DNA of 64,000 bases from Solitalea lacus. GTDB taxonomy: Bacteria; Bacteroidota; Bacteroidia; Sphingobacteriales; Sphingobacteriaceae. Location of the stretch: contig NZ_CP091740.1 of NCBI RefSeq assembly GCF_022014595.1, positions 4,142,200 to 4,206,199 on the forward strand. Direction: 5' to 3'. Position numbers and translations under genes: made by a program. This document shows, one piece after another, positions 23,099 through 34,556 of this stretch (its first letter is position 1; each line of letters starts with the position of its first letter). The notes beneath the pieces were generated by a model. It saw nothing but the letters and a program-made list of their open reading frames with translations. It did no database searches and was not told where the DNA came from.

Positions 23099-25033
23099 TT
23101 AATTGGTTGCCAACCCTCCTCCATTATTTAACAGCACCACTTTGGATTTATCGGCTTTAGCAATGGCAGCGAAGAAATCGGCCAATTCATTATAAGTTGA
23201 AGCGTCAAACCTGCCACTATTCATTACCAGCTTACGGTAATAAGTTACTGTATTCTTTTCTACTTTGGTGGTGGTTGTAAACTCGCCAAATCGCGACTTT
23301 AAATTAACATCAACAGGTTTTGACTCAACACCTGAAAACCCATCGGGCATAACATATTCTATTTTATCTTCGTCTACGTACGGAAATTTCATTACTATTT
23401 CACAGGTCCTTTTCTCCGATTTATCCGGCACCCAAGTAAACTGATTTAACAAATTAGGCTGCAGAAATAAACGTTTACCACTAATGTTTATATAATTATT
23501 GAAATCAAATTTTACATTTTCGATAACCGTTGGCAACTTGCCTTTATCAACCTCATGCGAAAAACTATTAATTACTACACCAGAAAGGTTTATTTCTTTG
23601 TATAATTTTTTTTCCAATTCGCCTTTACTTTCCATGGCTATATCTGCGCTCAAGTCATCTTGCATGGCCCCACAATAAGTTGATTTAAGGTCCACCTTAC
23701 CATTACCATCCATATCAAAAATAACTTTCGCTTCTCTCTTTTCTTTATTCTCTGCAAGTGCAAGCACCGGTGTTTTGATCAACTTACCCCCTTCTTTATT
23801 AAACGACAACACCCAGCGATCAGCTGTAAATTGACCTAGGTAATTGAATGCATTATATTGGCTTGTGCATTCCAACCAAATACTGTCTTTTTCCATAGGC
23901 ACGTTTAAAATTACGTGGTTAAACTGATTGGAGGGAAAACCTATGTGCATATTGGCTCCTCCATCGCCTGCATAAACAAGCGTAGGATTGGATGGTATAC
24001 CCGCTTCCTTTAGTAAAGAATGCATATAATTAGTTAAAGCCTTACAATCGCCGTAACCGCGTGAAGCGACATAATTGGCATCGAAAGTTTGCCATCCTCC
24101 AATACCTAATTGAACACCTACATAGCGGGTATTTTTTTGAAGATACTCATAAAGCACTTTCACTTGTTCCCGCTTGTCGCCAATATTGGCAATAAGTTCT
24201 TTTACTTTGGCTTTCATTGCTTCAGGTAAAACATTACGATCGGCATTTAACTGGTAATTCCATAATCCAAAAGATTGCCAAGTAGACATATCACCTTTAT
24301 AACCTTCTATTTCAAACTGCGAAGGGGCTAATAATACCAATGGTGTTCGTTCATTTAATTTAGGAGCGAAAACTTCAGACTTTACAGCAGGATAATCTGT
24401 TAAGTTCCATTCCAAAACTATTTTATCATTTTCAGTTGATTGTTTTAAAGGAGTAGAAACACGCATTTCTTTAAACCTTATATTCATTGTAGAAGGATAA
24501 ATTATCTTAAAAGTGCTCTGCTGCACTGAAAGATTGAAGTGATCAACAGGCTGCCATGGAGGCAACCACAATATTCCGTTAAATGCCGATTCTTCTTCAA
24601 ACTCAACTGTAAAAGGGTAAGTATGATGTTTTATCGTTGCAGCTTTAACACGGTTATCATCATAAAATGCATCCCCGCCGCCTGTTTTAACATCCAATAT
24701 ATCGGAACTTTTAAGTTTGGCAACTTGAACTCCTGTAGAATCATAAACTTGTCCTTTTAAGCCTTTAAACGGAGTTAACTTATCATATTGAACAACGCAT
24801 TCGGTAAACTCATTTGCATGTTTGTTTAAAATAGTAATGGCATAACGATGAACTAATCGAGCAGATCCTATACCATCAATGGTGAGGATGTATTCCTCTG
24901 AACGTTTTACGGCATCAGCACCTTTGCGCAACTCAGCCGGAATATCCTTAACCGGATACTTTTTATCATCACCAGCTAAACTACTCAATGTATTTAACAG
25001 GCCTAAAGAAAGTAGAAGTAATGCTTTTTTCAT
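23099..25033 (-). CDS. DUF3857 / transglutaminase-like secreted protein (Cys and His kept)
   Basis: The 644-aa protein has a signal peptide (about 1-20), an N-terminal DUF3857 beta domain, a transglutaminase-like core and a C-terminal beta domain. The catalytic Cys330 (GYGDCKALT) and His373 (FNHVIL) are present; the third residue is in WLECTS. These proteins are common in Bacteroidota and act outside the cytoplasmic membrane, but their substrate is not established. It lies two bases after a longer paralogue whose catalytic residues are replaced, so the pair may work as an enzyme with a non-enzymatic partner. Confidence 0.85.
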   Translation of the reverse strand: MKKALLLLSLGLLNTLSSLAGDDKKYPVKDIPAELRKGADAVKRSEEYILTIDGIGSARLVHRYAITILNKHANEFTECVVQYDKLTPFKGLKGQVYDSTGVQVAKLKSSDILDVKTGGGDAFYDDNRVKAATIKHHTYPFTVEFEEESAFNGILWLPPWQPVDHFNLSVQQSTFKIIYPSTMNIRFKEMRVSTPLKQSTENDKIVLEWNLTDYPAVKSEVFAPKLNERTPLVLLAPSQFEIEGYKGDMSTWQSFGLWNYQLNADRNVLPEAMKAKVKELIANIGDKREQVKVLYEYLQKNTRYVGVQLGIGGWQTFDANYVASRGYGDCKALTNYMHSLLKEAGIPSNPTLVYAGDGGANMHIGFPSNQFNHVILNVPMEKDSIWLECTSQYNAFNYLGQFTADRWVLSFNKEGGKLIKTPVLALAENKEKREAKVIFDMDGNGKVDLKSTYCGAMQDDLSADIAMESKGELEKKLYKEINLSGVVINSFSHEVDKGKLPTVIENVKFDFNNYINISGKRLFLQPNLLNQFTWVPDKSEKRTCEIVMKFPYVDEDKIEYVMPDGFSGVESKPVDVNLKSRFGEFTTTTKVEKNTVTYYRKLVMNSGRFDASTYNELADFFAAIAKADKSKVVLLNNGGGLATN

Positions 25034-25035
25034 TA

Positions 25036-27090
25036 TTACTGGCTAATCTTTTTTAATACAATTTGCTCAGAAAACTTATTTAAAATTGCTGAATAAAAGG
25101 ACTTTAACCCTTCATATTCGTCGGCTATGAACATTTTTTTATTAAAACTGAGAGTTGAGCGAATCTGAATTTTATTTTCAACCTGCCCAACTATGTATGT
25201 AAACTTAGCTCCGCCTTCTGATAAGTTCAAAAGTGCCGACTTAGGTAATTCTTCCACCGCATAGCCTTGGGGAACTTCAATAGTTACCAAATTGGTCTCA
25301 TCACTCAAGGTCGGATAGCTTACCGGGAATTTACGTTCCTTAGCTTTAAACTTGCTTACCTTATTTCCTGAAAATAAAATTGGACTGATGTACAAAATAT
25401 TAGCAGAAGGCTCCCCATCAGATTCAAATGACAAATGGCCAACGAATGTTGTATCAACCTGTTTTACATTTTCGAAACTATGCTTTGTTATAGTTACCCC
25501 ATTTGTTTTAAAAGCATTTTTCACAAATTCGTCTTCAGATGTTGCAGCAGTTAGTGCTGTTCTTAAATTAGCCGCTGCATAGTCCTTAGCATAAATTACT
25601 ATAGTTCCAGTAAGTTTACCATCTTTAACCCCAAAGTTTATGTTTGTCGACTTTCTTGCCCGTACTTGATCGTTTTCTAAATCAACCCATCTTCCTACAC
25701 CCTTTTCGTCAATTAATCGCCCACGTCCGTTTAGGCAATATTCCGGAAGAAGGTAAGCGGGACGGTTAGCATCAGTCGCATCTAATAAAATATCAATTGT
25801 ATCTACCTCAACAGCAGCTATCACATTATTAAAATTATTAATCATTGGATAGTACTCATTCACTCGACCATGCCTTCGGGTGCTTAACAAAACAGGGTTG
25901 GCTTTTAAACCTGCTTCACGCAGCATACCAACCAGCAACAGATTAATATCAGCAGAGCTACCATTTTTTTTCTCAAATACTGTTCTTGGAGTTTGAGATG
26001 CCCACATGTTTACATCGCCATTCCATTTTACATTTCTCTTTAAAAAGTTAGCAATAGCAATTGAACGGGTTGTCGGATCAGCATTTTGATCCGCAATCTG
26101 TTTGATTTGATCTTTTAAAAAGCCTGTACGGTTAATTGAACTAGCAAAGCCGTCGGTTTTGTAAATAGCTTCCGTTACCTTTTCCCAGGTATTCAATACT
26201 TCTCTATAGTTTGATTCTGGATATTTGGTACCCTGAAGCTGAAATTTAATTTTTGAAACATAATCCTCGCGTGTAGTGATAAATTCATCATCTCCAAATG
26301 CTGGTACATCTTTCATCACCCAGCGATAATCAGTAGCTCTTGCCTGAATAGTTTCAGATCCTCCAGAAGTTCTGCCTCCTCCTAATCCTGGGCTAATTGA
26401 AGAAGACCATCTGATAGTAAATTGATCACCGGCCTCCTTTTTCTCATTGATGAAGAAAGAGTTATATCCCTGACTTTCTAACTTATAATAAAAATACTCT
26501 GGAATTCTAGCATTATATTCACTCCACAAAACCGGGTATTTACTCTGAAACTCCCACTCTTTGAAAAACAAAACATAGTTTGAGCGTATTGAATAAGCAA
26601 ACTCAATAACAGCACCTTCCTTTACATTAGGCAGTGTAAATTTTCGTTGCTTATAGCTGTCAGTTATCTGTTCATCGAAGATACCTTTGCTATCAAGCTT
26701 ATATTCCGCAATTTTTCCATTCTCCAATAAATAAGTAACACCTTTAAGCTGGGAAATCTTTTCCTTCGTATTGAGACCATCATAATAAGGGATAACCACA
26801 GTTGCTGCATCAAAGGCTCCTTTATTAAAAATTTTAATCCGGCAATGACGTTCGTGAACAATTTCAAAATCATCTTGTCCAAATTCAAAATGTGTATTGC
26901 CTATATCTGACAATACAACGGCATTAGCACTTGAGTCAGGAGTGTAAACTGGCATTGTCATTTCTTCCATGCTCACTTTCCCATACTTGACAGGAGCTTT
27001 CTGAGCATATGAGACGAATGACATTAACAATAAAAGGTATAAAAAGTATGCACTTTTTATAAATGGTTTGGTTAAGTAAAGATTTGGCAT
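25036..27090 (-). CDS. DUF3857 / transglutaminase-like protein with replaced catalytic residues
   Basis: The 684-aa protein has the same architecture as its downstream neighbour. Aligned by eye over NGSSADINLLL and MLREAG, the catalytic Cys is Ser379, and the catalytic His is Asn422 (FNNVIA). It has a signal peptide ending near SYAQ. It is the upstream member of a tightly coupled gene pair (the stop and next start are two bases apart). The loss suggests a structural or binding role instead of catalysis. The alignment is manual, so the exact residue pairing should be confirmed. Confidence 0.85.
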   Translation of the reverse strand: MPNLYLTKPFIKSAYFLYLLLLMSFVSYAQKAPVKYGKVSMEEMTMPVYTPDSSANAVVLSDIGNTHFEFGQDDFEIVHERHCRIKIFNKGAFDAATVVIPYYDGLNTKEKISQLKGVTYLLENGKIAEYKLDSKGIFDEQITDSYKQRKFTLPNVKEGAVIEFAYSIRSNYVLFFKEWEFQSKYPVLWSEYNARIPEYFYYKLESQGYNSFFINEKKEAGDQFTIRWSSSISPGLGGGRTSGGSETIQARATDYRWVMKDVPAFGDDEFITTREDYVSKIKFQLQGTKYPESNYREVLNTWEKVTEAIYKTDGFASSINRTGFLKDQIKQIADQNADPTTRSIAIANFLKRNVKWNGDVNMWASQTPRTVFEKKNGSSADINLLLVGMLREAGLKANPVLLSTRRHGRVNEYYPMINNFNNVIAAVEVDTIDILLDATDANRPAYLLPEYCLNGRGRLIDEKGVGRWVDLENDQVRARKSTNINFGVKDGKLTGTIVIYAKDYAAANLRTALTAATSEDEFVKNAFKTNGVTITKHSFENVKQVDTTFVGHLSFESDGEPSANILYISPILFSGNKVSKFKAKERKFPVSYPTLSDETNLVTIEVPQGYAVEELPKSALLNLSEGGAKFTYIVGQVENKIQIRSTLSFNKKMFIADEYEGLKSFYSAILNKFSEQIVLKKISQ

Positions 27091-27312: not shown

Positions 27313-28008
27313 TTAATCTATATTGAATTTATATCCTATTCCTCTTACTGTTTGTAACAGCTGTGGATTTTCAGGATTATCTTCAATTTTCTTCCTCAAG
27401 CGAACAATATGCATGTCTAAAGTTCGGGTATTTACATCCGAATTATATCCCCAAACTACCTGCATCAGTTCATCTCTGTTAATTACCTTATTTGGGTTTT
27501 TAAGAAAATAAAGCAGGATTCGGTTTTCCAAAATAGTCAGCTCAATTTTCTTACCATCAGTAGTAATTAGAGAGTGGATACTTGGGTGATGCTCCATGTT
27601 ATGGAATTTGTGAATTTCCGATTTATCCTGAGTAAGCATAAACTTCACTTTATTTTCCAACAGAGCTACCAAAACATCCATATTAAATGGTTTGGTAATG
27701 TAGTCTGAAACCCCAAAGTTATATGCATCAATTTTGTCCACATCTTGCGCTTTAGCTGTCATCATGATAATAAGATTCTCAAAATTTTGCTGACGCAATG
27801 AAGAACAAACCGCTGAGCCTTGCTTTCCTGGCAACATCCAGTCGAGCAATACTACTTCGGGTTCTTCCTTTAAAACTAAAACTTCGCCATCGGGACCGTT
27901 GGCGGCTTCAAAAACAGTATATCCCTCTTTCTCCAATCGGCTGGCAACCAAAAAGCGGAGATTTTCATCATCTTCTATAACTGCAATCTTGATTCTCTTC
28001 CTTTCCAT
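27313..28008 (-). CDS. OmpR-family response regulator
   Basis: The 231-aa protein has a receiver domain with acidic pocket Glu12, Asp13, Asp14, phospho-acceptor Asp56 (VVLLDWMLPG) and Lys107 (DYITKPFN), then a winged-helix DNA-binding domain ending in VRGIGYKF. It should be phosphorylated by the kinase encoded 14 bases upstream and regulate transcription. Target genes cannot be told from the sequence. It is the last gene of a three-gene operon headed by the S9-like lipoprotein. Confidence 0.95.
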   Translation of the reverse strand: MERKRIKIAVIEDDENLRFLVASRLEKEGYTVFEAANGPDGEVLVLKEEPEVVLLDWMLPGKQGSAVCSSLRQQNFENLIIMMTAKAQDVDKIDAYNFGVSDYITKPFNMDVLVALLENKVKFMLTQDKSEIHKFHNMEHHPSIHSLITTDGKKIELTILENRILLYFLKNPNKVINRDELMQVVWGYNSDVNTRTLDMHIVRLRKKIEDNPENPQLLQTVRGIGYKFNID

Positions 28009-28022
28009 AGAGTCATCAGTTT

Positions 28023-29717
28023 TTATCGTGAATTAATCTTTCTTAAAGGTAAAATAATTTTAAATTCTGAACCCTGTCCAAGTTTACTTTTTACGCTAAT
28101 ATCACCATTCATGAAATTGACAATCTCTTTGCAGAATGCCAATCCAATACCAACACTGCCATGACGATTAAACTCGTTCTCAACTTTATAAAACTTCTTA
28201 AAAATATTTTCGAGTTCTCCTTTTTCAATGCCTATGCCCTGATCAACAAATTTAAAAACCACAGCTTTGCGCTGTCTTTTCACATTGATATTCAAATATT
28301 TATTTCCAGGAGCCGAATATTTATAGGCATTATCCATCATATTGGTAAATACACTATTGAGCAATACGGCGTCCGTTTCAAATTGTGCAATATCTTCAAT
28401 TTGGTATTCAACGTTAAAATCAGGGTACTTTATATGATAGGCATCTACCAGATTCTGACAAAACACCTCCAGATTTATATTAGTAAATTTCAGCTTTATC
28501 GATTTGTTCTCTAACTGAGTAAACGACAAAAGCTTGGTCATCAAATCGTTTAGCTTATCTGCTTCTTCATTTAATATTCGGCCATAATTTAAACGTTCAC
28601 GATCCGTAAGTCCATCACTGCTCCTAATATTATCCCCAGCTATCTTAATAACACTAACCGGCGTTTTAAATTCATGGGTTAAGTTATTTATAAAATCATA
28701 TTGAAGTTTAAATAACTTTTGGTTAATGTTCAAATTTCGGAAAATTAAATATGCAATAAACAATACCAATAGATACACTACAATAAATCCAATTGCTAAT
28801 GGGGTAAAAATGCGGTAAATCTCTTTATTTAAATGCTCTTTGGTTGAAATGAAATAAAGCTGGTAGTCGGAGAATGCGCCTGGAAGTGATATACCCGTTG
28901 TGTAAAAATGCTTCGTATCTGTACTCAATGAATCAAACATAAACGACTTAATGAGTATGTTTTGATACAATTGCGGATTTACATTTTCAATTTTAAGTTT
29001 CGTTGGATCAAGGTGAAACACAACAAGATCTTGTTCATAAGTTGGCGATGGCGGTTGCGAACCTGGCTTAAAAAAATCTTTGTAAACACTTAATTCCTGC
29101 CTGCGAGGAACATTTAGAAAACTGACCTTGCTATCGTTTATTGTATAAAAATTATTAAAGATCTGACTGTTATCAGGAATTCGATTGGTATCAACCTGCT
29201 CCACATATGAAATAAATTTCAACATGGCACTACTAAAATCAGTCTCCACAGAAGGGGGATAGTTATAAACCTCTTTTTTGCGGCTATATAGTAACTCAGG
29301 CTGACTATTACGCTGATACTTATGAATTGATTTAAACTCTGCCGAAAAATGATCCTTTGTTAATCCGGTAGTAATTTTATGATTACTAATTTCCAGATCA
29401 TAAAACACAAGTGAACTTATAAACGGGTAGTTGGCAAACAGGTTCTTTGAGATTTTGCCAACTGATTCTGATTCGAGAAAGCCCTGATACAATGAAAACT
29501 TTGGAACTTCATTATTAAGAAGTTCATTATAGGGTTCAATAGATTTATCAAGCACTTTGGCCTTATCACTATCAAATTGACCTTCAACAAATTTTTGCGT
29601 GAATTTATATGCTAAAAATAGAGCCAGTACAAATGACAGTGAGATTAGTATGAAGAAACTGGTAATTAAAACCAGGTTTTGGCGGTATTTACTTCTTTGT
29701 TGAGACTTACTTTCCAA
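28023..29717 (-). CDS. Membrane sensor histidine kinase
   Basis: The 564-aa kinase has TM1 (about 14-37), a large periplasmic sensor region of about 260 residues, TM2 (TPLAIGFIVVYLLVLFIAYL), a HisKA domain with the phospho-His in NNLTHEFKTPVSV, and an HATPase_c domain with NAYKYS, DQGIGI and VGIGLAF. No HAMP domain is evident. The start codon is TTG, since no nearby ATG precedes TM1. It is in an operon with the response regulator (14-base gap) and the S9-like lipoprotein (13-base gap). The sensor domain does not resemble a named family to me. Confidence 0.95.
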   Translation of the reverse strand: MESKSQQRSKYRQNLVLITSFFILISLSFVLALFLAYKFTQKFVEGQFDSDKAKVLDKSIEPYNELLNNEVPKFSLYQGFLESESVGKISKNLFANYPFISSLVFYDLEISNHKITTGLTKDHFSAEFKSIHKYQRNSQPELLYSRKKEVYNYPPSVETDFSSAMLKFISYVEQVDTNRIPDNSQIFNNFYTINDSKVSFLNVPRRQELSVYKDFFKPGSQPPSPTYEQDLVVFHLDPTKLKIENVNPQLYQNILIKSFMFDSLSTDTKHFYTTGISLPGAFSDYQLYFISTKEHLNKEIYRIFTPLAIGFIVVYLLVLFIAYLIFRNLNINQKLFKLQYDFINNLTHEFKTPVSVIKIAGDNIRSSDGLTDRERLNYGRILNEEADKLNDLMTKLLSFTQLENKSIKLKFTNINLEVFCQNLVDAYHIKYPDFNVEYQIEDIAQFETDAVLLNSVFTNMMDNAYKYSAPGNKYLNINVKRQRKAVVFKFVDQGIGIEKGELENIFKKFYKVENEFNRHGSVGIGLAFCKEIVNFMNGDISVKSKLGQGSEFKIILPLRKINSR

Positions 29718-29730
29718 AACTGAGAATAAG

Positions 29731-31617
29731 TTATTTCTTTAAATTTTCGTTAAAAAATTCTTCCATCGCTTTATAAAACTCCAGCCTGTTTTCCTGCTTC
29801 AAAAAGTAAGTACCTTCATTTTGCTTTAAAATGTAGCTAACATCAACACCTCTTTTTTGCAAATTTTTAACCAATTGACTGGTTTCTTGTGTGTTTACAC
29901 GTGGATCTTTAGCTCCTTGGGCAATTAGAAAAGGTACTTCTATATCTTCGGCATGAAAAATCGGAGAAGTTTCACGTAAAATATCTGCTTCGGTTTCCGG
30001 ATTTCCTACTTGCGCATAATACATGCCTTGCATTGACTTATAGTAAGGAGGAATATCTTTTAAATACGTAAACAGGTTTATAATCCCGCAGTATGAAACC
30101 CCACACCTGTACAAATCAGGATTTTGAATGCAACCCACCAACGCACTGTAGCCGCCAAATCCATTGCCGAAAATCGCTATCCGAGAAGTATCAGCAATAC
30201 CCTCTTTAATCAACCATTTGGCCCCATCCGTGATATCATTTTGTATTTTACCACCCCATTCTTTAAACGAGGCCTGATAAAAAGATTTTCCATAGCCTAA
30301 CGACCCTCTGTAGTTCATTTGCAAAACTGCATAACCCCTGTTAGCCAGAAACTGAACTTCTGCATTGTAGCCCCATTTATTGCGGGCCCAAGGTGTGGCT
30401 CCACCATGAGGCATAATGATTACCGGCAAATTCGTAGAAGCTTTCCCCTTTGGCAAAGTTAAATATCCGTGTATCGTTAAACCATCTCGAGTTTGATACT
30501 GAATAGGTTTCATCTCGGCCATCTCAGTTTCCTTAATCCATGGCGCAATATCACTTAACTTGCTTAATTTATCAGAGTTATTTTCATACAGGTAATATGT
30601 TCCCGGATTTTTATCACTGTATGTTCTGATCAAGAACTTTTCTTCGTTTTGATCCACGCCAGTAATCCAAAGATCTTTACCCGGAAGTTTTTTTGCTATT
30701 TTATCATAAAAGCATGCATAAGGCTCATCAATGAAATGTACTTCATACTTCCAGGTAGTAAAGCCAACCCACACAATTTTTTTCAGAATTTTGGAAAGTC
30801 CGATCTCATTCACGTCCACATCTTTGTTCTCGTAAATAGTCCTGACTTCGTTGCCGCTTTCAAGATCGAGCTCAACTAAGGCCGTTTTATCTCTACCTAT
30901 GTTTGATAAAGCATAAATATGTTTATTATTATCAAAGGTAAATGCTTGTGGATCCAAACTTTCGGTAAAGCCCACTTCCTTTACCACCTTAAATGGCTTA
31001 TCCTCGGCTGTCCGGTAAAGCAAGCGCTCTGACACTCCATCGGTTTCAATGGCAACCAACAGTTTCCCATTGTGATCAGCCATCCAATTGTTAATGTTTC
31101 CCGGATTTTCCGCAATAATTTTCAGCTCACCGGTTTCAAGGTTCATTCGGTATGCATCAAACTTCTTTTCATCGCGCTTATTCATCAGTAACAAAATGTT
31201 TCCATCTTGCATAACATCGATAAGACGTACGGTTACTTCTGAATACGGGGTAATATCCCTATTTCCTATTCCATCTTTACCCACGGCAAAAAGATGATAG
31301 CGCTCATCACCGTTATTATCTTTTAAATAAATAAGCTGATTGTTACCTCCCCACCAATATTTTGTAATAGAGTTTTCACTTTCTGAAGTTACTTGCGTAA
31401 TTTCGCTTGTATGTAATTTCTGAACAAATAAATTAAGGCGGTTATTATAAGGTTGAAGAAAGGCTACATAATTACCATCAGGAGATAACCTAAAGAAAGT
31501 GCGTTCGGGGTTTCTGAAAAAATCGGCAATAGGTATTTCGCGTACGGTTGTTTTTTTATCACACGCACACAACGTCATCACAAATAAAAACAAAACGCTT
31601 CTCAAAAATACCTTCAT
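29731..31617 (-). CDS. S9 prolyl-oligopeptidase-like lipoprotein, catalytic Ser and His missing
   Basis: The 628-aa protein has a lipoprotein-type signal (LCAC, Cys19), a beta-propeller (about 40-360) and an alpha/beta hydrolase domain like S9 peptidases. In place of the nucleophile motif GxSxGG it has GNGFGG (Gly486 at the Ser position), and the final NEGH motif reads NEGT (Thr603). Asp571 (AKDPRVN) is kept. Both changes are seen in the DNA codons, with no frameshift. It is first in an operon with a histidine kinase and response regulator, so it may bind peptides and signal rather than cut them. Confidence 0.87.
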   Translation of the reverse strand: MKVFLRSVLFLFVMTLCACDKKTTVREIPIADFFRNPERTFFRLSPDGNYVAFLQPYNNRLNLFVQKLHTSEITQVTSESENSITKYWWGGNNQLIYLKDNNGDERYHLFAVGKDGIGNRDITPYSEVTVRLIDVMQDGNILLLMNKRDEKKFDAYRMNLETGELKIIAENPGNINNWMADHNGKLLVAIETDGVSERLLYRTAEDKPFKVVKEVGFTESLDPQAFTFDNNKHIYALSNIGRDKTALVELDLESGNEVRTIYENKDVDVNEIGLSKILKKIVWVGFTTWKYEVHFIDEPYACFYDKIAKKLPGKDLWITGVDQNEEKFLIRTYSDKNPGTYYLYENNSDKLSKLSDIAPWIKETEMAEMKPIQYQTRDGLTIHGYLTLPKGKASTNLPVIIMPHGGATPWARNKWGYNAEVQFLANRGYAVLQMNYRGSLGYGKSFYQASFKEWGGKIQNDITDGAKWLIKEGIADTSRIAIFGNGFGGYSALVGCIQNPDLYRCGVSYCGIINLFTYLKDIPPYYKSMQGMYYAQVGNPETEADILRETSPIFHAEDIEVPFLIAQGAKDPRVNTQETSQLVKNLQKRGVDVSYILKQNEGTYFLKQENRLEFYKAMEEFFNENLKK

Positions 31618-31800
31618 AAAGTCAATATCCCCTTTTGGTTATTCTTTTGTTAAATCGTGTTAAAAATAGTTAAAATAGAATGCCTTAAACGGGGCTGTAA
31701 CAACAATTTTACCCCTCAAAAACAACATTATTACGCCGTTTTAATGCTTGTAACAAGGAAACGACATAAACTCGCATAATCATTTAAATTCATTCTAACC

Positions 31801-32700
31801 TTGATAACAGTAGAAGAAGTTTTATTCTCCATTAATCAGCAATTTGCCCCTTCAAAGCGAATTGTTAGAGTTGATCTGGCTGATTCATTAAATATGTTTT
31901 TAGCTGAAGATTTATTGCTGCCTGAAAAACAAAGTGCTTACAATCACAGTAATTATGCCACGTATGAAACAACATTGAAGCGGGGCACTTTATTAAGAGC
32001 CTACGAACTCGGCATCTTACATAAACTAGACATTGATCAGGTAAATGTGTACAAAGCAATTGAAACTTGTATACAACCAGTGTACACACACTTATACCCC
32101 ATAAAACCTATTATTTCGCCAATTATTAAAAGCTTAATTAAAGATTTTAATGGAGTAAACACTGCAATGGAGCCAATGCTCATAATGGAAAGTCCTGATG
32201 TTGACCTTCAGATTAAATCATTAATTGATCGATATGACATACTTATGATTACCGGTTATGACCACCATCAACTGGTTCCTAAATTTGAGCAGTTTGGTAT
32301 TAACTTCACCATTAACAAAATACAACAAACACCCGGAGAGAAAACCATAATAGGTTTTGATGAGCACAAAGTAGTGCTGTTTTTGCCTGAGGAACAGACC
32401 GGAGCTTTAGTTTGTGCTGAAATTTACGGAAGGGCCGCAATTTTAAAAGCATTAGGAAAATCATTTCAACCCATAAAAGCAACTTCGGCGAGCCATTATG
32501 AAAACACAACATCCTATACACATTTTTCTATAGGCCGTTATTCTATATTCGACAAAGACGTAATTGTTAATTTTCAGCAAAAAGTAGGTGAAATAATACT
32601 TACTGATTTTGCCAGTGCGAACTGCTACGTGCGAATATTACCTAACTCAACTATTGTTAAAGGTTCCCAAGTAGAAATTATTCCTTTTATAGGTAATTAA
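31801..32700 (+). CDS. Degenerate MoeA-like (molybdopterin molybdotransferase) protein
   Basis: The 299-aa protein follows MoeA along its length: MITVEEVLFSIN at the start, LAEDLLLP, a Rossmann-like part ending YDILMITGYD, and VVLFLPEEQTGALVCAEIYG near the C-terminus. Key MoeA motifs are changed: DNSAMDGYA is absent, SGG reads TGY, KPGKP reads TPGEK and LPGNP reads LPEEQ. It is about 100 residues shorter than MoeA. The start codon is TTG, supported by the match of MITVEE to MoeA starts. No other molybdenum cofactor genes are nearby. Probably not a normal MoeA enzyme. Confidence 0.7.
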   Translation: MITVEEVLFSINQQFAPSKRIVRVDLADSLNMFLAEDLLLPEKQSAYNHSNYATYETTLKRGTLLRAYELGILHKLDIDQVNVYKAIETCIQPVYTHLYPIKPIISPIIKSLIKDFNGVNTAMEPMLIMESPDVDLQIKSLIDRYDILMITGYDHHQLVPKFEQFGINFTINKIQQTPGEKTIIGFDEHKVVLFLPEEQTGALVCAEIYGRAAILKALGKSFQPIKATSASHYENTTSYTHFSIGRYSIFDKDVIVNFQQKVGEIILTDFASANCYVRILPNSTIVKGSQVEIIPFIGN

Positions 32701-32750
32701 TTTTTTTTCATTTACATGTAATAACAAGATTGTTTAATATTTTTACAGAT

Positions 32751-34556
32751 ATGCGTCAACTTGTTATTTATTTCTTATTTCTGCTCATCCCAATAGCTTC
32801 GATTGCTCAAAAAAGTACAGACGAAGCATTGGCGATGGATTTTTTCCGTAATGGAGAATTTCAAAAAGCAGCAGATTTATATGAAGAAATTTATAATAAA
32901 ACAGGTTCAGAGCCCAGCTTCAACTCTTTAATTAGCTGTCTTTTAAAACTTAAACAATTTGATAAAGCTGAAAAAAGCGCCCACAAACAGGTAAAACGCA
33001 ACCCAGGAGTATTACGCTACCAGGTTGACTTAGGCACCATATATAAACAAAGTGGAAACTCTGCTAAAGCTAAAGAACAGTTTAACAAAGTTATTAATGA
33101 GATCAATGCCGATATGTTTACCATTACTGATATCGGGCAGAAATTTTATTCTTTAGCAGAATTCGACTATGCAATTGCCACCTTTAAAAAAGGCCGGCAA
33201 GTAATGGGAAATGAAACGCTGTTTACTTATGACCTAACCCGCCTATACAATCTAAAGCAGGACAAGGCTGCTGTAATTGAAGAAGCCTTAACTCAAATTG
33301 CAGGCAACCCAACTTTCATTAGTCAATCAAAAAGCATCTTATTAAGTTCATTGCAAGAAGAAAAGGACTTTGACGAATTAAAATCCGTTCTTCAAAAGAA
33401 AATAAACAAAGACAGCAAAAATCCTGAATTAGCGGAGCTAATGATTTGGCTCCTCTTACAACGAAATGATTTTCAAACAGCACTTGATAAAGCCATTGCT
33501 TATAACAAAAACTTCAATGAAGATGGCGAGCGGTTGTTAACCGTAGGCAATGCTGCTGCTCATGCCGAAAAATATGAAATAGCGACACGTGCCTTCGCTG
33601 CTATTGCCTCGGCAACACCAAGGAGCCCATTGTATGAAGAGGCTAAACTGGCTTTAATCAGTGCCAAAAATAAAAAAATCACGAGCGGTAATTATACACA
33701 AGAGGACCTGATTTCACTAGAGAATGATTACCAACAGGCAATTCTGGAGTTTGGAAAGAGCAATGAAACCTTATATATAATTAAGGAACTGGCTCAATTA
33801 AAAGCTTATTATTTAAACAAAATCAATGAAGCGATAAAGTTATTGGAAGAGGCTCTTAAAACGCCAAGAATCTCTACTTCTTTACAATCGGAGTTAAAGC
33901 TGGATTTAGGAGATACGTATATTTTAGCCGGTGATGTTTGGGAAGCAACTCTGCTATATGGCCAAGTTGACAAAGCTCTTCGTGACAATCCTTTAGGCCA
34001 AGAAGCTCGCTTTCGTAGCGCACGGCTCTCTTTTTGGAACGGCGATTTTGAATGGGCCAAAGCACAGCTTGATGTTCTCAAAGCTTCTACTTCCCAACTT
34101 TTTGCCAATGATGCCCTTAACTTATCATTGTTAATTGGTTCTAATATGGGGCCTGATAGTACCAACAAGCCTTTAAGAATATATGCTCAAGCAGATTTGG
34201 CACTCTTCAAAAATCAACTAACAAGTGCCAAAAACAAATTGGATAGTTTAAAGTCACTTTTCCCCGGACATCCCCTTGAAGATGATATTTTAATGGCTGA
34301 AGCAAAAATTTGTTTAAAAAAAGGTGAAATCCAGGCTGCCGAAAAGAAACTTAACGAAATCGCTGAACGTTTCAGTTATGACATTTGGGGCGATGATGCC
34401 CTTTTCATGCTTGCTGACTTAAATGAAAATCAATTAGGTAACAAAACCAAAGCCCAGGAGCTTTACGAAAAATTGTTGACCCAATATCCTGGTAGTTTAT
34501 ATGTTTTGGAAGCTCGTAAGCGATTCAGAACATTAAGAGGAGACGTCATAAACTAA
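32751..34556 (+). CDS. Secreted TPR-repeat protein
   Basis: The 601-aa protein has a signal peptide (MRQLVIYFLFLLIPIASIAQ) followed by TPR-like helix pairs along most of its length, e.g. AADLYEEIYNKTGSEPSFN and AEKKLNEIAERFSYDIWGDD. It is expected in the periplasm or on the outer membrane as a scaffold for protein complexes. I chose the ATG at 32751 instead of the TTG at 32730 because the signal peptide begins there. Its last 11 bases overlap the end of the convergent deacetylase gene. Partner and role are unknown. Confidence 0.8.
   Translation: MRQLVIYFLFLLIPIASIAQKSTDEALAMDFFRNGEFQKAADLYEEIYNKTGSEPSFNSLISCLLKLKQFDKAEKSAHKQVKRNPGVLRYQVDLGTIYKQSGNSAKAKEQFNKVINEINADMFTITDIGQKFYSLAEFDYAIATFKKGRQVMGNETLFTYDLTRLYNLKQDKAAVIEEALTQIAGNPTFISQSKSILLSSLQEEKDFDELKSVLQKKINKDSKNPELAELMIWLLLQRNDFQTALDKAIAYNKNFNEDGERLLTVGNAAAHAEKYEIATRAFAAIASATPRSPLYEEAKLALISAKNKKITSGNYTQEDLISLENDYQQAILEFGKSNETLYIIKELAQLKAYYLNKINEAIKLLEEALKTPRISTSLQSELKLDLGDTYILAGDVWEATLLYGQVDKALRDNPLGQEARFRSARLSFWNGDFEWAKAQLDVLKASTSQLFANDALNLSLLIGSNMGPDSTNKPLRIYAQADLALFKNQLTSAKNKLDSLKSLFPGHPLEDDILMAEAKICLKKGEIQAAEKKLNEIAERFSYDIWGDDALFMLADLNENQLGNKTKAQELYEKLLTQYPGSLYVLEARKRFRTLRGDVIN

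Follow-up and report, generated by a model that had tools for sequence, protein, structure and literature searches.

Recurrent loss of the active site in an S9-family lipoprotein encoded with a two-component system in Sphingobacteriaceae

A 64,000-nucleotide stretch of Solitalea lacus DNA (contig NZ_CP091740.1, positions 4,142,200 to 4,206,199; hereafter the window), which lies in a 4.40-Mb single-contig genome, was analysed for three closely spaced genes encoding an S9-family lipoprotein, a membrane histidine kinase and a response regulator (Table 1). All three open reading frames (ORFs) were found where a preliminary description of the window had placed them, and the spacings between them that it had given were confirmed from the coordinates. 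The S9-like protein matched the Pfam profile Peptidase_S9 (PF00326) over residues 415-627 with 149.6 bits (cut-off 22.6), and was homologous over residues 30-623 to the S9 amino acyl peptidase of Protein Data Bank (PDB) entry 5l8s (E = 4e-48), so that both the catalytic-domain profile and the alignment of the propeller region assign it to the S9 family by fold and sequence. A script check of the motifs located Gly486 within FGNGFGGYS, where GxSxGG is expected, and Thr603 within QNEGTYF, where EGH is expected, as the preliminary description had reported; Asp571 was retained, in GAKDPRV. Whereas 5l8s keeps GGSYGG and EGH, the window protein has lost Ser and His, and because the Ser-Asp-His triad required of an active S9 peptidase has become Gly486, Asp571 and Thr603, it is not an S9 peptidase. 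S9 proteins 80% and 82% identical to it were present in Solitalea agri and S. longa, members like S. lacus of the Sphingobacteriaceae.

Table 1. Features of the operon and of the region upstream of it, in positions of the window
Feature	Position	Strand	Basis or remark
S9-family (prolyl oligopeptidase-like) lipoprotein, 628 aa	29731..31617	-	signal peptide, lipobox Cys19, Pfam, motif check
Membrane histidine kinase, 564 aa, TTG start	28023..29717	-	Pfam HisKA + HATPase_c; hydrophobic segments
OmpR/PhoB-type response regulator, 231 aa	27313..28008	-	Response_reg + Trans_reg_C; receiver and winged-helix domains intact
Nucleophile elbow codons (GNGFGG, residues 484-489); Ser486 position is Gly (GGA)	30151..30168	-	counted from ORF start
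S9-kinase junction, 13 nt	29718..29730	-	tight junction common to 119 loci including the window
Kinase-regulator gap, 14 nt	28009-28022		from ORF coordinates
Two 17-nt direct repeats, 82% alike, 22-nt spacing	31699..31737	-	about 80-120 nt upstream of S9 start

The N-terminal hydrophobic stretch of the S9-like protein ended in LCAC, a lipobox-type sequence that includes Cys19. In the kinase, hydrophobic stretches at residues 12-41 and 299-332 enclosed about 260 residues, in agreement with the large extracytoplasmic domain previously ascribed to it. H348 and the N, G1 and G2 motifs of the kinase were all intact and the phospho-acceptor Asp of the regulator was present; with phospho-acceptor His, ATP-binding motifs and regulator Asp all in place, the pair has the make-up of a canonical two-component system.

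Conservation of the gene order was examined in 221 genomes of the family, which were searched with the S9 protein as query; at a threshold of E up to 1e-100, a match was found in 206. Loci were re-annotated after fetching, and the rows aligned, chosen from the family matches and from part of further match lists, are a non-random sample. The alignment held 129 full-length S9 rows, 119 with an adjacent kinase and 10 without, the class of 119 being defined by a kinase homologue in the fetched stretch. All 119 genes, from 22 genera (six represented by a single row), lay directly 5' of the kinase homologue on the same strand, with a median gap of 6 nt (range -4 to 189; at most 30 nt in 114 loci). 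The regulator was found in 117 of these loci, the contig ending beforehand in the remaining two, and Cys19 was present in 116, with an alignment gap at that position in the other three. Lipoprotein, kinase and regulator are thus adjacent in the manner of the actinobacterial MtrAB-LpqB genes discussed below, and the three-gene order of the window holds throughout these genera. In both S9 trees the kinase-linked rows formed one clade with a support of 100 (92 of the 101 rows in a first tree with catalytic columns excluded, 119 of the 127 in a larger, unrooted tree), and neither clade contained a row without a kinase. The trees came from quick searches with SH-aLRT (Shimodaira-Hasegawa-like approximate likelihood ratio test) support only; labels near the re-rooted path of the re-rooted 127-row tree may be shifted, and the 27 printed there for the operon clade is such a shift. 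Within the sample, the S9-kinase-regulator set is an old, tightly linked one, essentially of one bacterial family.

Eight partial or broken loci were excluded from the alignment. Their states at positions 486, 571 and 603 were EDH in L144, SDH in L146, L150 and L112, GDH in L147 and GDR in L149; motifs in L184 included Ser and His, and those in L189 Gly and Arg. L147 (genome G169) is shortened to 482 aa, and the two-frame split of L149 (G188) may be an assembly error.

The active site differed widely among the operon homologues. The triad was intact in 37 of the 119 rows and degenerate in 82. Position 486 was Gly in 74 rows, Ser in 38, Arg in 4, Asn in 2 and Glu in 1, while position 571 was almost invariant (Asp 117, Asn 2); at position 603, His was kept in 47 rows and was otherwise replaced by Arg, Thr, Asn, Tyr, Lys, Ala, Gln, Phe, Asp, Ser, Gly, Trp, Ile or Glu, or by a gap. 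By genus, eight had only intact triads, eleven had none and three were mixed. All 38 Ser486 codons were AGY; a single change turns these into codons for Gly (GGY), Asn (AAY) or Arg (AGR/CGY), and the one Glu codon requires more. The preliminary description had proposed checking whether Gly486 and Thr603 are conserved in other genomes, and had held that its proposal would fall if homologues in the same operon kept Ser and His. Taken literally, this is what was found, since 37 of 119 keep Ser-Asp-His. Its suggestion that a dead peptidase in a conserved operon serves as a co-sensor still fits an accessory role; what did not stand is inactivity as a family-wide trait. The better picture is of an enzyme, active in the ancestor, that lost its activity on many occasions.

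Several lines of evidence bear on this picture. All 10 aligned S9 rows without a kinase, which serve as the outgroup, are Ser-Asp-His, and it is on them that the direction of change, from intact to dead, rests. A further 40 S9 hydrolases from outside the operon, taken from matches listed in the S9 search (35 of them from Sphingobacteriaceae) and scored by a motif script, all kept the Ser elbow and a His at the expected place. Likewise, the seven S9 matches of the window genome all had Ser, and six had the aligned His (L006 was unaligned). Among the S9 proteins examined, the active site has been lost only within the kinase-linked clade. Under an irreversible (Dollo) model, 16 losses were counted on the best 127-row S9 tree, and 15 by reversible parsimony; with weak branches collapsed the Dollo count fell approximately to 14 (support <80) or 11 (<95). 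On the tree of kinase plus regulator (114 rows), reversible parsimony counted 13 changes, and none of the 29 rootings tried required fewer than 15 Dollo losses. A single ancient loss was rejected: uniting 23 dead rows in one clade gave a p-AU of 1.3e-4 in the approximately unbiased (AU) test, and one clade for four dead rows of genus g21 was likewise rejected, the groups having been named after a tree had been seen. A single loss was unlikely on the kinase plus regulator tree also.

On the best tree, 7 of the 16 loss clades include a member that lacks Ser486 yet has His603 (an RDH pair, a GDQ/GDH set, an EDH row, L068, g2, L052 and L124), none points to loss of His first, and nine are uninformative. 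The sole row with Ser and without His (L083, SDA) is nested in a GDA group and reads as a later reversion at 486. By our own arithmetic, seven to none has a one-sided probability of 1/128, which presumes equal mutational opportunity and depends on the best tree. This bias hints that removal of the nucleophile was itself favoured, beyond simple neglect of the site, or that the His has an additional structural role. Loss would have proceeded by replacement of Ser486 with Gly (or Arg, Asn or Glu), with His603 decaying afterwards.

Dead copies are under purifying selection. The ratio of nonsynonymous to synonymous substitution rates (dN/dS) was computed for 25 pairs, 17 dead and 8 intact. It was 0.025-0.149 in the seven dead pairs with dS below 2 and 0.042-0.083 in five intact pairs, the others being synonymous-saturated or having dS >2; the corresponding ratio of uncorrected differences (pN/pS) was 0.07-0.17 in six Solitalea pairs. 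The 119 full-length copies span 597-649 aa with a median of 628 aa, dead and intact alike. These values argue against gene decay, in which catalysis would have been lost on the way to a pseudogene. Short or broken copies do occur, but they are few (the two-frame L149 and the shortened L147), as is outright absence of the gene, seen in genus g10; on the other side stand dN/dS ratios far below 1 in dead pairs and genera such as g13, g14, g16 and g4, whose sampled rows include no intact triad yet have full-length genes. Length and dN/dS reject decay for most of the sampled lineages, and we regard it as very improbable.

Another alternative is that the protein remains catalytic, either through another nucleophile or through a reaction in the same pocket that needs neither Ser nor His, such as lyase or isomerase chemistry. 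Among dead rows, Asp571 is retained in 98% and His404 in 96%, and the hydrolase domain stays highly conserved, with a lower rate of change than the propeller in 13 of 17 dead pairs; all of this would be expected of a working pocket. However, no Ser or Cys was conserved above 80% in dead rows in the five loops scanned (400-411, 480-495, 508-517, 566-575 and 596-607), where Thr517 alone reached 80%, and His603 has given way to 14 residue types or a gap, a range that no shared chemistry would permit. Positions at least 90% conserved in intact rows and below 70% in dead rows were 31, 476, 486, 502, 509, 543, 546, 559, 573, 603 and 605. The strained geometry of the nucleophile elbow in the hydrolase fold is compatible with Gly and Asn, so that substitution of Ser486 by either can keep the fold. 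In human DPP10 the elbow with Gly is unaltered, and restoring the Ser left the protein inactive (PMC4350108). Residual catalysis is accordingly judged improbable.

Location of the protein was assessed from its N terminus. One lipobox pattern was found in 97 of the 119 kinase-linked rows vs 2 of the 10 unlinked rows. An acidic pair after the lipobox Cys is part of a surface-export signal of Bacteroidota; such a pair lay within five residues of the Cys in just 9 of 116 rows, which suggests that most of these S9 lipoproteins are more likely to face the periplasm.

We propose that the S9 lipoprotein is probably a non-catalytic accessory of the kinase, with peptidase activity as an option. The three genes would make up a three-component signalling operon that encodes a histidine kinase in the membrane, a regulator of the OmpR type and an S9-fold lipoprotein facing the periplasm, the last of which would be under selection as a kinase accessory. 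Its propeller/hydrolase body most likely touches the extracytoplasmic domain of the kinase and would set kinase output as a structural subunit, with occupancy of the S9 substrate cavity perhaps being the signal. Peptidase activity would be ancestral yet dispensable, hydrolysis remaining as an extra in those lineages whose intact triads are presumably active. A more specific scenario is that an active S9 peptidase once trimmed or destroyed a periplasmic peptide signal meant for its partner kinase and became, at least 11 times and Ser-first where the order is readable, a non-cutting peptide receptor that reports its ligand to an undescribed sensor domain; taken with all its particulars, this version is doubtful.

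Comparable proteins are known from animals. Mammalian DPP6 and DPP10, S9B pseudo-peptidases that act as Kv4 auxiliary subunits, share with the operon protein the S9 fold of propeller and alpha/beta hydrolase, a lost nucleophile and a gene under selection. DPP10 has Gly in place of the nucleophile Ser, keeps the Asp and is a Kv4 modulator (PMC4350108). Fly DPP10 combines the roles of auxiliary subunit and active peptidase, whereas its mammalian relatives keep only the auxiliary role (PMC4873792), a duality that matches the mixture of intact and dead homologues seen here. DPP6 and DPP10 are type II membrane proteins on an ion channel, in contrast to a bacterial lipoprotein beside a histidine kinase, and loss in the present clade was recurrent (11-16 times). 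Nor, among solved structures, does the operon protein have its closest relatives in S9B: the best is 5l8s, human DPP10 (4wjl) matching with an E-value of 6e-15 and DPP4-like proteins matching much more weakly than 5l8s. If the accessory reading is right, the protein would be an analogue of DPP6/DPP10 in bacteria, in which a peptidase fold has been taken up as a subunit for signalling; its orthologues, intact and dead, share one operon across one bacterial family. The interest lies in the replicated losses, since inactivation that happened many times makes the question of catalysis vs binding testable by comparing sister species.

Accessory proteins encoded with two-component systems also have precedents. 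LpqB, the lipoprotein of the MtrAB-LpqB set, combines GerMN and propeller-like domains and is not known to be an S9 peptidase; no LpqB or GerMN model was listed for the S9 protein in Pfam and NCBIfam scans, which involved no direct comparison with LpqB. MtrA-MtrB-LpqB, encoded by three conserved adjacent genes of actinobacteria, is called a three-component system (PMC10714768), and resembles the present operon in placing an OmpR-type regulator, a membrane kinase and a lipoprotein side by side. It belongs to another phylum, however, and its lipoprotein gene comes last rather than first; the window regulator scored 179 bits against MtrA, below the 300-bit cut-off. The periplasmic CpxP modulates the kinase CpxA, but is a soluble protein not known to be related. 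QseG is not known to derive from an enzyme, and its regulator QseF is of another type. This outer-membrane lipoprotein activates the histidine kinase QseE through a contact shown by cryo-electron microscopy (PMC12691602). As in QseE-QseG-QseF, an accessory lipoprotein acting in the periplasm would be encoded here with kinase and regulator, the contact in our case being a likely one. With MtrAB-LpqB, QseG-QseE and DPP6/DPP10 as precedents, the signalling design, called not commonly described in the preliminary description, is not unprecedented; no description of a kinase-linked S9 pseudo-peptidase was found in the open-licence literature searched.

A number of observations weigh against an accessory role, and some of them favour the alternative that the S9 lipoprotein is merely co-transcribed, as an output or regulon member that has its own binding role in the periplasm (for example in chaperoning or in scavenging peptides or cell-wall fragments) and makes no contact with the kinase. 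Operon position can reflect co-expression alone, and the gene order requires no more than shared expression. The S9 protein is also not obligatory for the kinase. Of the 15 family genomes without an S9 match at 1e-100, ten have the kinase (1e-60); the other five have neither, four of them being 71-83% complete and one, G066, 100%. In five of the ten, all of genus g10, kinase and regulator occur without an adjacent S9 gene, with about 4 kb of upstream sequence at hand in four genomes and a nearby contig end in the fifth locus (L145); in the remaining five the S9 gene is contig-cut, shortened or in two frames. In g10 (L142) the gene immediately upstream of the kinase is a divergent tetratricopeptide repeat (TPR) gene, and in 91 of 130 loci fetched with flanks of about 2 kb a homologue of it is the next gene type met upstream on the opposite strand, so that g10 looks like a clean loss of S9 at a conserved place. 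S9 distances covaried with sensor distances beyond what kinase core and regulator explain (partial r 0.46 for the propeller, 0.38 for the hydrolase domain), yet the values for the regulator were nearly as high (0.40 and 0.35) and those for the kinase core low (0.07 and 0.09), so the co-variation is not specific to the sensor. The hydrolase domain was the faster of the two in 4 of the 17 dead pairs (three from Solitalea, and L132/L135). Finally, AlphaFold2 models built from three Solitalea sequences had a predicted local distance difference test score (pLDDT) of 51 for the S9 protein and 37 for the kinase, too poor for use; consequently the earlier statement that propeller and hydrolase folds are kept is supported by homology to 5l8s, at the level of sequence only.

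Other features of the same data are not expected from co-transcription alone. The operon clade contains no S9 row without a kinase, whereas the kinase occurs without S9. Ser and His were kept in 50 of 50 S9 homologues examined away from the kinase, so that active-site loss goes with kinase linkage, and a lipobox is found far more often in the operon clade than outside it. Co-transcription without kinase contact is on balance unlikely, and a non-catalytic kinase accessory is the reading we prefer.

If the S9 protein does touch the kinase, the contact would involve a sensor region (kinase residues 1-330, window 28728-29717) that matched nothing in the PDB at E up to 1 and had only scattered weak matches in Pfam, in at most 3 of 40 members. 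A search of 247 genomes of the class located the region in nine, eight of them Sphingobacteriaceae and one a marginal match in another family (E = 0.003), and it is possibly an undescribed sensor fold. Genus g10 has changes at 9 of 42 conserved sensor positions, the highest number in any of the 22 genera, and five of these positions fall within the YQGYLDS stretch at residues 73-83; the p-value for this patch, 0.0026, is post hoc, the patch having been chosen after the fact. Genus g3, which has S9, counts against a link to S9 loss, with 8 of 42 positions changed and the same patch altered. Moreover, g10 is divergent overall, with 9 of 105 kinase-core positions changed, a number equalled by g7. 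Residues 73-83 are thus at most a suggestive lead, read from aligned sequences, for a contact surface.

Upstream of the operon, the pair of 17-nt repeats sits in a block conserved in four Solitalea and was not seen family-wide. At a spacing of 22 nt, 3 of 117 upstream regions reached 12 of 14 matches vs 0.6 in shuffles, too few to call. Such repeats, about two helical turns apart, might speculatively be a site for an OmpR-type regulator. The TPR protein of the window (32730-34556), on the opposite strand upstream of the operon, may share its regulation. Between the operon and the TPR gene lies a 299-aa protein (31801-32700) that weakly resembles the C-terminal part of MoeA; a homologue was present in just 3 of the 130 fetched loci. 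Two adjacent DUF3857/transglutaminase-core proteins (23099-27090) are encoded downstream, in the operon's own orientation. Elsewhere in the window genome, an S9 paralogue with Ser-Asp-His is interrupted by a DDE transposase gene (PF13701; L112:5691-8996, G000:C1 about 361690-364995); uninterrupted genes in two other Solitalea genomes (L110 and L111) share 81-97% identity with the two pieces of this paralogue.

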